Source of the DNA: Rhodospirillales bacterium | GTDB lineage: Bacteria > Pseudomonadota > Alphaproteobacteria > UBA828 | Direction: 5' to 3' | Assembly (NCBI GenBank): GCA_028820995.1 | Contig: JAPPHR010000112.1 | Span: 1-41,883, forward strand | DNA: 41,883 bases | Shown: piece after piece, positions 1,738-9,570 of the stretch | How positions within the stretch are numbered: position 1 is the first letter of the stretch | How the letters are laid out: the number at the start of each line of letters is the position of its first letter | Notes under the pieces: model-generated | Seen by the model: the letters and a program-made list of their open reading frames with translations, nothing else | The model's database searches: none | Told to the model about the DNA's origin: nothing | Translations under genes and position numbers: made by a program

Positions 1738-2532
1738 ATGCTGGTCGACAGCCACTGCCATCTCGACTTTCCGGACTTCGACGACGACCTCGACGGCGTT
1801 CTCGTGCGGGCGGCCGACGCCGGGGTCGGCACCCTGCAGACGATCTGCACGCGCGTGACGCAATTCGACGCGGTGCGTGGCCTGGCGGAGGACCACGAGA
1901 GGATCTGGTGCTCGGTCGGCATCCATCCGCACCACGTCGCCGAGGAGCCGGAGACCACCGCCGATCACCTCGTCCGCATGGCGGAGCATCCCAAGGTCAT
2001 CGGAATCGGCGAAACCGGGCTGGATTTCCATTACGACAACAGCCCGAGGCCGCAGCAGGAAGCGAGCTTACGCCAACACATCGCCGCTGCCAGGCAGACC
2101 GGGCTGCCGCTCATCGTCCACACGCGCTCGGCCGACGAGGACACCTGCCGCATCCTGCGCGAGGAAGCGGGGAAGGGGGCCTTCCCCGGCGTCATCCACT
2201 GCTTCAGCGCGGGCCGCATGGTCGCGGAGACGGCGCTCGACATAGGGTTTCATGTTTCGTTCTCGGGCATCCTCACCTTCAAGAAGGCCGAGGAGGTGCG
2301 CGCCGTCGCCCGCGACGTGCCCCTGGAGAGGCTGCTGGTGGAGACCGATGCGCCCTATCTCGCGCCGGTGCCCCACCGCGGCCGCCGCAACGAGCCCGCG
2401 CACGTGGTCCATACCGCCGCGCGGCTCGCCCAGATCAAGGGGCTGGATGAGGCCGAATTGGCCCGTGCGACGACCGATAATTTCTTCAGACTGTTTTCCA
2501 AATCGACGCCGCAACCTCTCGCAATAAAATGA
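1738..2532 (+). CDS. tatD: TatD-family metal-dependent deoxyribonuclease
   Basis: 264 residues, the usual TatD length. The TIM-barrel amidohydrolase-type metal ligands are visible: H6 and H8 in DSHCHLD, E92 in GETGLDFHY, H128 in IVHTR, H154 in VIHCFS and D204 in VETDAPYL. The family has 3'-5' exonuclease and DNA-repair-related activity on DNA and RNA; the exact physiological substrate is uncertain. It lies 20 bases after metG and overlaps the next gene by ATGA, so translation of the pair is probably coupled. The start has only a weak ribosome site, which fits a within-operon gene. Confidence 0.93.
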   Translation: MLVDSHCHLDFPDFDDDLDGVLVRAADAGVGTLQTICTRVTQFDAVRGLAEDHERIWCSVGIHPHHVAEEPETTADHLVRMAEHPKVIGIGETGLDFHYDNSPRPQQEASLRQHIAAARQTGLPLIVHTRSADEDTCRILREEAGKGAFPGVIHCFSAGRMVAETALDIGFHVSFSGILTFKKAEEVRAVARDVPLERLLVETDAPYLAPVPHRGRRNEPAHVVHTAARLAQIKGLDEAELARATTDNFFRLFSKSTPQPLAIK

Positions 2533-3299
2533 AAATAACCGTCCTCGGTTGTGGCACGTCGAGCGGGGTCCCGGTAATCGGCTGCGACTGCGCGGTGTGC
2601 CGCTCGAGCGATCCTCGCAACCGCCGGCGCCGGGTCTCGGTGCTGGTCGAATCGGGCGACACGCGGCTCCTGATCGACACGCCGCCGGACCTGCACGCGC
2701 AACTGGTCGATGCCGATGTCGCGCACGTCGATGCCGTGCTCTACACCCACGGCCATGCCGACCACGTGCACGGAATTGACGACCTGCGCTCAATCAATTT
2801 CCGCATGGGGCGGGCGCTCGATACCTACGGCTCGGCCAAGACGCTGGCGGCCATCAAGGGACGGTTTGCCTACGCGTTCGAGCCCATGGGCACGCGCGGA
2901 TGGGCCAAGCCCAGCCTCAATCCGGTGGAAATCGACGGCCCGTTCGCCGCCGGCGGCTTGGAAGTGACGCCGTTCCCGCAGGAGCACGGGCGCAGCGTCA
3001 CCACGGGCTACCGGATCGGCGCCATGGCGTATTCGACCGACGTGAAGGTGCTGCCGGAGGAGGCCTTCGCCGCTTTAGACGGCGTCAAGCTCTGGGTCGT
3101 CGATTGCCTGGGCTACCGCGAGCATCCCACGCACGCGCATCTCGACATTACGCTTGAATGGATCGCACGGGTGAGGCCGCAGCTCGCCGTGCTGACGCAC
3201 ATGTCGCACCAGTTCGACTACGAGACGCTGCTGGCCGCGTTGCCGGAAGGCGTGGTACCAGGCCACGACGGGCTTACGATCGAGACGGAGCGGCTGTGA
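2529..3299 (+). CDS. MBL-fold metallo-hydrolase, PhnP-like
   Basis: 256-residue metallo-beta-lactamase-fold hydrolase. The metal motif HGHADH is at residues 74-79, further ligand regions are PQEHGRS and DCLGYREHPTHAHLD, and a Cys-rich N-terminal loop (CGTSSGVPVIGCDCAVC) resembles the zinc loop of PhnP-type cyclic phosphodiesterases. This family is regularly found after tatD in alphaproteobacteria, but its substrate there is unknown to me. The start codon overlaps the tatD stop (ATGA). It is the last gene before the dif site, and the operon probably ends here although no clear hairpin is seen. Confidence 0.88.
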   Translation: MKITVLGCGTSSGVPVIGCDCAVCRSSDPRNRRRRVSVLVESGDTRLLIDTPPDLHAQLVDADVAHVDAVLYTHGHADHVHGIDDLRSINFRMGRALDTYGSAKTLAAIKGRFAYAFEPMGTRGWAKPSLNPVEIDGPFAAGGLEVTPFPQEHGRSVTTGYRIGAMAYSTDVKVLPEEAFAALDGVKLWVVDCLGYREHPTHAHLDITLEWIARVRPQLAVLTHMSHQFDYETLLAALPEGVVPGHDGLTIETERL

Positions 3300-3348: not shown

Positions 3349-3376
3349 ATTTACCATAATATATCTTATGCGAATT
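3349..3376 (-). other. dif: dif site (XerC/XerD chromosome-dimer resolution site)
   Basis: On the minus strand the 28 bp read as an 11-bp XerC-side arm AATTCGCATAA, a 6-bp centre GATATA and an 11-bp XerD-side arm TTATGGTAAAT. The E. coli dif arms, from memory, are GGTGCGCATAA and TTATGTTAAAT. The XerD arm therefore differs at one position and the XerC arm in three of its first four bases only. The site is a sharp AT-rich island in GC-rich DNA and is intergenic. Dif sites mark the terminus where XerCD, activated by FtsK, resolve chromosome dimers. Motif polarity and gene orientation around it agree (see findings). Confidence 0.9.
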
Positions 3377-3492: not shown

Positions 3493-4428
3493 ATGAGCGA
3501 TACGCCACCGCCGCAGCACCGCCCGGACGACGACAACACGCCCGACGCGCGGGCCGCCGGTATCGATCGACTGCTCGACGTGATGGCCCGGCTGCGCCAC
3601 CCGGACGGCGGCTGCCCGTGGGATCTCCAACAGAGCTTCGAGACCATAGCGCCCTACACCATCGAGGAAGCCTACGAGGTAGCCGAGGCGATCCGGCAGG
3701 ACGACCGCGAGGCGCTCCGCGACGAGCTCGGCGACCTGCTGCTGCAAGTGGTCTTCCACGCGCAGATGGGGCGCGAAGACGGCAGCTTCGATTTCGATGC
3801 GGTCGCGCGCGGCATCGCGGACAAGATGATCCGCCGCCACCCAAACGTCTTCGGCGACGACGAGTCGGACGCGCGGCACTCGGCGCCGGCGCAGATGCGG
3901 TCCTGGGAAGCCCAGAAGGCTGCCGAGCGCGAGGCCAGGGCGCAAGCCGAAGGGCGCCGGCCCAGCGTGCTGGATGGCGTGGCGCTGGCCCTCCCTGCCC
4001 TGCTCCGCGCGGAGAAGCTGCAGAAGCGCGCGGCGCGCGTGGGCTTCGACTGGCCGAATCGGGCGCCGGTCTTCGACAAGGTGCTGGAAGAGGTGGCCGA
4101 GGTGCGCGAGGCCGCGGCGGCAGCGGATGCGCAGGATCCGCCTGACCCGGCCGTCACGGCCGAGGTCGGCGACCTGCTGTTCGCCTGCGTCAATCTGGCG
4201 CGCCATCTTGGCGTCGAGCCCGAGGCCGCGCTCCGTGCCGCCAACGCCAAGTTCACGGCCCGCTTCCGCCATGTGGAAGCGGCACTGGGCAATTCGGGAC
4301 GCGACGCGGCAGACGTCGGCCTCGCCGAGCTCGACCGGCTGTGGGAGGAAGCGAAGCGGGCTGAGCACCGGCCAAGGGCGGTCGCGGCGTCAGCCGATCC
4401 GACTCCGGGCGAAACGGGAAAGAACTAA
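3493..4428 (+). CDS. mazG: Nucleoside triphosphate pyrophosphohydrolase MazG
   Basis: 311 residues with the two tandem MazG domains of the long form. The first holds the Mg-binding helix set (IEEAYE at 57-62, DELGD at 77-81) after the typical RHPDGGCPWD segment. The second follows VGFDWPN and holds EEVAEV and AEVGDLLF. It hydrolyses NTPs and dNTPs to monophosphates, cleaning the nucleotide pool. It is separated from the metallo-hydrolase by about 190 bp containing dif. The ribosome site before ATG 3493 is poor. In many relatives mazG lies beside hflX and hfq; here groESL and a phage-like gene lie between them. Confidence 0.94.
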   Translation: MSDTPPPQHRPDDDNTPDARAAGIDRLLDVMARLRHPDGGCPWDLQQSFETIAPYTIEEAYEVAEAIRQDDREALRDELGDLLLQVVFHAQMGREDGSFDFDAVARGIADKMIRRHPNVFGDDESDARHSAPAQMRSWEAQKAAEREARAQAEGRRPSVLDGVALALPALLRAEKLQKRAARVGFDWPNRAPVFDKVLEEVAEVREAAAAADAQDPPDPAVTAEVGDLLFACVNLARHLGVEPEAALRAANAKFTARFRHVEAALGNSGRDAADVGLAELDRLWEEAKRAEHRPRAVAASADPTPGETGKN

Positions 4429-4559: not shown

Positions 4560-5597
4560 TTGGGCGGGCGGTCGTCGGTGGAGAAGCTGCCGGCCGATTT
4601 CCGCGATGCCGTCGACGCCGCGATCGAAGACGGCACCACCATCGACGATATCGTCGCCTGCATCCGTGAGATGGGCGGCGACTGTTCGCGCTCCGCCGTC
4701 GGCCGCCACGTCAAGAAGGAGCGCGACCTGATCAGCGAACGGCGCGCGTTCGGCCGCTTCGTCGAGGAATGGACGCATGTGCTCGGCCCCCGTGCCGAGG
4801 GCCGCGCCGGCCTCGTCGCGATCGAGACCCTGCGAATGCTGACCCTGCGCACCATGGCCGAGCTGAGCCAGCGCAAGGAGCCGGCGTCGCTCGAGGAGCT
4901 GTCCCGCCTCTCGCTTGTGCTGGTCCGGATCGAGCAGGCCGACAAGCTCCGCCTCGAACGCGAGCGGGCTGCGGCCGAGGCCAGTGCGGAGGCGGACGCC
5001 GCCGCACGCGCTGCCGCCATGACCCATGAAGAGAGGGTCGCGGCTATCCGCCAGTCCATCCAGGAGGAGTTCTTCCCCAATTTCTCAGCCTCGCCGCCGG
5101 AGGAATTCGAGACGGCGGCCGCCGCTCCCGAGGGCGCGCCCATCAACCCGCCGGACGACAACTCCGGTTCGCTTGCCGACGGCGGAGCCTGCGTCTGGGA
5201 GGACGCGAGCAGAGCGCACGACGTGCGGGACTCGCGCGGAGCGGACGCGATAGCGGCGGGGGGCAACTGGCGGCGCCAGCCGCAATCGGGCCGCACGATC
5301 CTGCGTTCTGCCCCTGGGCGTGGCGGGGACCGGGCTGAGGCCGGGGGGTCCCCTCATGACACGGCCGCGCATGTTGGCGCGGCGCCAATTCCAGCCCGCG
5401 ATTCTCACCACAGGCGAAGTCTGCCCGACGCTTACCGGCAGCAACGACGACGAAGAGATTGTCCTCCCCATCCACGCGATTCACCGGACCATGGTGCGGG
5501 GCGCGCTGCGCTCCACCGGTACTCTCCTCACGTTCGACGCTGGAGACTGCCGCCGCCCGGCCCGCGGAACCACGCTCAGCCCACTTGTCCCACTTAA
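4560..5597 (+). CDS. DUF3486 / Mu gp27-like phage-derived protein with unusual tail
   Basis: The first ~185 residues resemble the DUF3486 family (Mu gp27-like, thought to be a small-terminase-type DNA-packaging factor). SSVEKLPADFRDAV is followed by a helix-turn-helix-like GGDCSRSAVGRHVKKE and a long acidic helical region rich in Glu, Ala and Arg. The start is TTG 4560, chosen because family members begin with a Gly/Arg-SSV segment; no ATG or GTG is available in that frame nearby. After residue ~190 the reading frame continues for ~155 residues rich in Arg, Pro and His that look like translated noncoding DNA, so the true end may be earlier or a frameshift may have occurred. No other phage gene lies nearby, so it is an orphan. 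Confidence 0.6.
   Translation: MGGRSSVEKLPADFRDAVDAAIEDGTTIDDIVACIREMGGDCSRSAVGRHVKKERDLISERRAFGRFVEEWTHVLGPRAEGRAGLVAIETLRMLTLRTMAELSQRKEPASLEELSRLSLVLVRIEQADKLRLERERAAAEASAEADAAARAAAMTHEERVAAIRQSIQEEFFPNFSASPPEEFETAAAAPEGAPINPPDDNSGSLADGGACVWEDASRAHDVRDSRGADAIAAGGNWRRQPQSGRTILRSAPGRGGDRAEAGGSPHDTAAHVGAAPIPARDSHHRRSLPDAYRQQRRRRDCPPHPRDSPDHGAGRAALHRYSPHVRRWRLPPPGPRNHAQPTCPT
5481..5499 (+). repeat. 19-bp direct repeat with palindromic core, copy 2
   Basis: Exact copy of the 4471-4489 repeat, in the same orientation and 1010 bp away. Together they bracket the DUF3486-type coding region. It lies inside the doubtful C-terminal extension of that reading frame, which supports that extension being noncoding. 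Confidence 0.8.
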
Positions 5598-8202: not shown

Positions 8203-9570
8203 TCAGGCGCTGGCGAACGAGACGCCGGGGCGCCGCTCCAGCCGGCCCGCGTCCGCCGGGCTGAGCCCGACCCTGAGCCGGGCCTCGCCGTTGTCATCGG
8301 AACATTCCAGGACCTCGCCATGGCGGTAGAGCCAGGCCAGGGTCGCACCGTCGGCATAGGGCACCCGTACGTCGACGACTCGCCGCGACGCCGTCAGCCG
8401 AGCGTCGATCGCGCCGATCAGGTCCTCGATGCCGTCGCCGGTAAGCGCCGACGCAGCGAGCACGGTCGGCTGTCCGGCGGGCCATTTGCTCCCGTTGCCC
8501 CCTCCCCTTCCCTGCTCGGCAAGGCAGGCGCGCTGGCGCGGGTCGAGCAGGTCGAGCTTGTTGAGGACCTCGACGACACCGCTCTGAAGGCGATCTTCGA
8601 GGCCGAGCTCGGTCAGCACCCGCAGCACGTCGACACGCTGCTCCGCACTCTCCGCGTGGGCGCAGTCGCGCACGTGCACGACAAGGTCGGCCGCGATCAC
8701 TTCTTCCAGGGTGGCACGGAACGCCGCCACCAGGTCGTGCGGCAGGTCGGAGACGAAGCCGACCGTGTCCGACAGGATGATGCGCTGGCCCGACGGCAGG
8801 ACGACGCCCCGCATGGTCGGATCGAGGGTCGCGAAGAGCTGGTCGCGGGCGGCCGCGCAGGCCCCGGTCAGCCGGTTGAAGAGCGTCGTCTTGCCGGCGT
8901 TCGTGTATCCGACCAGGGCGATGACCGGAAAGGGAACCCGCTGGCGCGCCGCGCGATGCAGGCTGCGGGTGCGCTTGACGGCACCCAGCGCACGCTCGAG
9001 ACGGCCGATCCGGGTGCGAATCTGGCGCCGGTCGGCCTCGATCTGCGTCTCTCCCGGCCCGCCGACGAAGCCGAATCCGCCGCGCTGGCGCTCAAGATGC
9101 GTCCACGACCGGACCAGTCGGCTGCGCTGGTAGCGAAGGGCCGCGAGCTCGACCTGCAGCCGGCCTTCCTTCGTGCGTGCCCGCGCACCGAATATTTCCA
9201 GGATGAGCGCGGTTCGGTCGATGACCTTGCAGTCCCACGCGCGTTCGAGATTGCGCTGCTGAACCGGGGTGAGCGCCCCATCCACGATGACCAGTTCCAG
9301 AGCCTCCAAAGACGCTGTCTCCGCAACTGTCTCCACCCGCCCAGGGCCGAACAGGGTTGCGGGCCGCGGATTCGGCAGGGGCACGACTTCCGCAAGCACG
9401 ACATCGAGGTCGATCGCCCGGGCCAGGCTGACCGCTTCGGCAAGGCGCCTCTCCGGCTCGCGCGCCGGCTCGCACGCGTGCCGGGCCGCCGGCGGCTGCG
9501 CCAGGGCCGGATGCAGGACACAGGTGCGCGATGGCGAATCAGCGCCGCGTGGAACGCTCGCGCCCGCCAC
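8203..9570 (-). CDS. hflX: Ribosome-associated GTPase HflX
   Basis: 455 residues. An N-terminal HflX domain (NPRPATLFGPGRVE, then VIVDGALTPVQQRNLE) is followed by a coiled linker with the GGPGETQIEADRR signature and a GTPase domain with G1 GYTNAGKTT, G3 DTVGF and G4 NKLD. HflX splits stalled or heat-stressed ribosomes. Its GTG start at 9570 follows the hfq TAA without a gap, so the two are translationally coupled. The Arg/Ala-rich first ~40 residues are poorly conserved, so a start further in cannot be excluded. Confidence 0.94.
   Translation of the reverse strand: MAGASVPRGADSPSRTCVLHPALAQPPAARHACEPAREPERRLAEAVSLARAIDLDVVLAEVVPLPNPRPATLFGPGRVETVAETASLEALELVIVDGALTPVQQRNLERAWDCKVIDRTALILEIFGARARTKEGRLQVELAALRYQRSRLVRSWTHLERQRGGFGFVGGPGETQIEADRRQIRTRIGRLERALGAVKRTRSLHRAARQRVPFPVIALVGYTNAGKTTLFNRLTGACAAARDQLFATLDPTMRGVVLPSGQRIILSDTVGFVSDLPHDLVAAFRATLEEVIAADLVVHVRDCAHAESAEQRVDVLRVLTELGLEDRLQSGVVEVLNKLDLLDPRQRACLAEQGRGGGNGSKWPAGQPTVLAASALTGDGIEDLIGAIDARLTASRRVVDVRVPYADGATLAWLYRHGEVLECSDDNGEARLRVGLSPADAGRLERRPGVSFASA

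Follow-up and report, generated by a model that had tools for sequence, protein, structure and literature searches.

Among the closest described systems is the dif/XerCD-FtsK system of Escherichia coli, in which a 28-bp site organised as 11+6+11 bases lies in intergenic or AT-rich DNA at the replication terminus, and KOPS-like motifs converge upon it. Chromosomal dif sites are already well described, as is their association with GC skew, and they have been predicted in hundreds of genomes (PMC3025954; PMC2731167). Carnoy and Roten (2009) attributed to proteobacterial dif sites "no apparent specific genetic environment" (PMC2731167), and a quarter of these sites adjoin mobile elements (PMC2731167).

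We analysed a stretch of 41,883 nucleotides, further called the window, which is the whole contig C23 of a MAG (2.87 Mb, 155 contigs, 67% complete) for which the nearest records with a name are MAGs of Alphaproteobacteria, one of them under the label Rhodospirillales, at a hydrolase identity of 81-89%. Read directly from the letters, positions 3349-3376 of the minus strand are AATTCGCATAAGATATATTATGGTAAAT, that is, 28 bp with two 11-bp arms and a 6-bp centre agreeing with the dif consensus. We regard it as almost certain that these bases are a genuine chromosomal dif site at the replication terminus, a call supported by uniqueness of the site, single-copy homologues in the same place in genus and family, turns of the skew, convergence of KOPS and presence of XerC and FtsK-gamma in this genome and of XerD in genus mates. 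The features concerned are the following.

3349..3376, minus strand: dif site, 28 bp, 5'-AATTCGCATAA GATATA TTATGGTAAAT-3'
3366..3376, minus strand: putative XerC-binding arm AATTCGCATAA, from the alignment to E. coli dif
3360..3365, minus strand: central hexamer GATATA, the same in all 6 genus members having the site
3349..3359, minus strand: putative XerD-binding arm TTATGGTAAAT, one mismatch to E. coli
104..1717, plus strand: metG, methionyl-tRNA synthetase (PF09334), part of the metG-tatD-mbl block
1738..2532, plus strand: tatD-family DNase gene (PF01026), part of the same block
2529..3299, plus strand: mbl, MBL-fold metallo-hydrolase gene (PF12706, E 1.1e-38), flank on the XerD-arm side
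3493..4428, plus strand: mazG (PF03819; NF007113 over its cut-off), flank on the XerC-arm side
8203..9570, minus strand: hflX, often the next marker gene past mazG in other Alphaproteobacteria

Aligned with E. coli K-12 dif (GGTGCGCATAATGTATATTATGTTAAAT, taken from NC_000913.3), the XerD arm is identical at 10 of 11 positions and the XerC arm at 8 of 11; the differences fall at positions 1, 2 and 4 in the XerC arm, 12 and 13 in the centre (TGTATA in E. coli, GATATA here) and 23 in the XerD arm, just as the sequence-only reading had it with three mismatches among the outer four XerC-arm bases and one in the XerD arm. Its description of the site as intergenic, AT-rich in GC-rich DNA and placed between the metallo-hydrolase gene and mazG is also accurate, the gap from the hydrolase stop (3299) to mazG (3493) being 193 bp and the GC content of the site 21% vs 67% for the window. 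The minus strand was assigned by us, the earlier reading having given none. The flanks differ from those of E. coli, where dif lies between ydeT and hipA. Also close is the dif of the circular chromosome of Agrobacterium tumefaciens, TAATCGCATAAGATATATTATGGAACTT (PMC2731167), which belongs to the same class, has the same GATATA centre and shares CGCATAAGATATATTATGG with our site, while differing in the final XerD-arm bases and in the outer XerC arm. The dif sites of uncultured class relatives (for example, at loci L196, L214, L215 and L241) share the order metG-tatD-mbl, dif, mazG-hflX and the orientation seen in the window, although their centre hexamer is usually TATATA or TGTATA.

The pattern CGCATAA-N6-TTATG-NN-AAAT has one zero-mismatch match in the window, where shuffles give an expectation of 0.04 matches at up to three mismatches, and a pattern scan of the contig revealed no tandem or second dif. 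A search of the genome for other sites with the same arms, proposed by the earlier reading, left this dif as the sole zero-mismatch match in the 2.87-Mb draft, about 3e-5 being expected from base composition; a second dif may lie on sequence absent from this 67%-complete draft. The runner-up (C120:9354) has one mismatch, TTCTG replacing TTATG, and is devoid of the conserved centre. With the centre hexamer left free in the search, five of seven genus mates each gave one site at up to one mismatch, always with GATATA in the centre; G001 and G003 had no match at this threshold. A dif match was found in 18 of 21 family genomes, nearly all in single copy. In a six-member genus alignment of the gap between mbl and mazG, positions are invariant at 75% within dif, 27% from mbl to dif and 6% from dif to mazG, a comparison that partly favours the arms, members having been picked by the dif pattern, while the free centre is equally invariant. 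The dif site stands out as conserved inside an otherwise diverged intergenic gap.

The genome of the window encodes the FtsK-gamma domain (E 2.3e-28) as well as a XerC-type recombinase, and all seven genus mates encode a recombinase of XerD type, the NCBI equivalog scores being just under the cut-offs (327.5 vs 329.6 for the XerD type, 307.6 vs 335.15 for the XerC type). XerD was not found in the 67%-complete genome of the window itself, probably due to this incompleteness. By analogy with E. coli, the AATTCGCATAA arm would be bound by XerC and the TTATGGTAAAT arm by XerD, at a site placed on the junction of the two replichores. Once sister chromosomes have become a dimer, septal FtsK, guided by KOPS-type motifs, would translocate DNA toward dif, and its gamma domain would activate XerCD, so that two dif copies recombine and the dimer is split. 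For the window's dif we infer binding and cleavage by XerC/XerD, translocation and activation by FtsK and dimer resolution from this likeness.

According to the sequence-only reading, the site locates the terminus without any whole-genome skew analysis. The terminus itself is supported by both skew and KOPS, but the assignment leans on relatives, because the window's own genome is a fragmented and incomplete MAG and the contig extends for 3.3 kb only on one side of the site, which also made the skew of the window alone uninformative. Long contigs of four genus mates place the skew turning point 1.1-3.2 kb from the homologous dif, the cumulative maximum being at -1500 bp (G002), -1387 bp (G005), +3215 bp (G006) and -1051 bp (G004) relative to it, and in the family member G008 the peak is at +3341 bp. 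The genus mate G007, having only 5.3 kb on one side, showed no skew change, with four motifs toward dif and three away. Pooled over seven contigs, the E. coli KOPS GGGNAGGG, which we assumed for these genomes, occurs 134 times toward dif and 21 times away, and in the window itself 10 times toward and once away; by our estimate, a GC skew of about 3% alone would lead to a toward/away ratio near 1.5. On the 5.34-Mb contig of the class relative G161, whose dif at 2.504 Mb is also between mbl and mazG, KOPS polarity switches from the 2.41-Mb sample to the 2.68-Mb sample, and the cumulative skew, as sampled, is highest near 2.15 Mb and declines from 2.41 Mb onward. Orientation of dif in respect to the skew was dropped as evidence, because the terminus is symmetric under reverse complement.

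According to our analysis the order metG-tatD-mbl, dif, mazG(-hflX), with a single dif orientation, recurs through Alphaproteobacteria. Among 64 class dif sites with at least 3 kb on either side, to which some families supply more than one site, metG, tatD or mbl flanks the XerD arm in 45 and mazG or hflX flanks the XerC arm in 42; both flanks are present at 35 and at least one at 52, always ordered and oriented as in the window. Twelve of the 64 have no flank gene where one would be expected, and of 193 class genomes sampled only 104 match the dif pattern at one mismatch; the linkage of dif with the flank genes is not universal in the class. Marker genes occur within 1.5 kb of dif at 52 of 80 sites inside the class; for 24 dif sites of other classes none was found at a distance of up to about 1.5 kb, nor in the 19.5 kb surrounding the E. 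coli site.

A set independent of dif was obtained from 80 loci retrieved by homology to the hydrolase (mbl) alone, in 20 of which mazG comes after mbl in the same orientation. Inside 18 of these 20 gaps, 85-2993 bp in length, there is a dif at up to two mismatches, and the remaining two hold a three-mismatch version; all 20 are on the same strand, and the shuffled gaps gave no dif match. The earlier reading took the join of mbl and mazG as usually short in relatives and dif as an addition to it, which is misleading, for the joins of relatives hold dif too. The position of dif, the more surprising of our results, is not peculiar to the window's genome. Two of the loci carry 1.1-1.4 kb of extra DNA in the gap, located between mbl and dif in L044 (6768-8218) and between dif and mazG in L047 (1044-2183), as if insertions beside dif were tolerated on either side. 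In five Acidobacteria-type loci (L082, L083, L094, L115, L118) mbl and mazG are adjacent but divergent, with no dif within the loci, and in such genomes the two may have a functional connection of their own.

In the interval between mazG and groEL the window has a Mu-like Gp27/small-terminase gene (4560-5594, plus strand; PF11985, E 3.7e-16; phrog_426), which is probably a phage remnant near the terminus; no further Mu genes were recognised nearby. Its location downstream of mazG, about 1.2 kb from dif, together with the mobile-element neighbours of a quarter of proteobacterial sites and the incompleteness of the MAG, may bring to mind a secondary dif-like attachment site, for instance that of an XerCD-integrating element of IMEX or pdif type, the true dif being elsewhere. 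We find this very improbable, as the contig has a single copy of dif, its position is vertically conserved through the class, and it is here that both skew and KOPS turn in the genus mates. Equally improbable is that this AT-rich imperfect palindrome, which separates two genes read in one direction, serves the mbl/mazG region as a promoter or terminator and merely resembles dif: we rejected this after a scan, in which two overlapping sigma-70-like minus-strand matches using TATATT/TATTAT of dif face away from mazG and no terminator-like structure occurs, and a promoter would not yield single-copy Xer arms spaced by 6 bp, skew turns and KOPS convergence, nor the same site at skew or motif switches in relatives despite other gap lengths (85-2993 bp).

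Returning to the chromosomal dif, its class-wide gene order appears to be undescribed in the literature searched, which did not include subscription literature: we found no paper that connects dif with mazG, with hflX or with the order described here, and the text of the Dinoroseobacter shibae dif paper does not name the neighbouring genes. We see the class-wide neighbourhood as a modest extension of the known dif picture that needs a wider survey. The gene order metG-tatD-mbl, dif, mazG-hflX appears to be inherited together with dif in Alphaproteobacteria, from which it follows that dif and the terminus stayed at this junction. The genes may have stayed either through simple inheritance with few cross-terminus rearrangements or through selection holding dif at the replichore junction. 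We are somewhat inclined to suggest that the terminus has been anchored since early in the class, moving dif off the replichore junction, or genes across it, being selected against.

A dif recognised in an uncultured and fragmented genome allows the terminus to be fixed without a closed chromosome, and, if the terminus is indeed anchored, gene order could mark it even in fragments and MAGs. In contrast to the earlier view (PMC2731167), in Alphaproteobacteria dif appears to have a specific genetic environment. If a wider, properly sampled survey agrees, mbl and mazG would become landmarks of the terminus, and the terminus, usually considered as a rearranging region, would in this class have preserved its gene order over a very long period.
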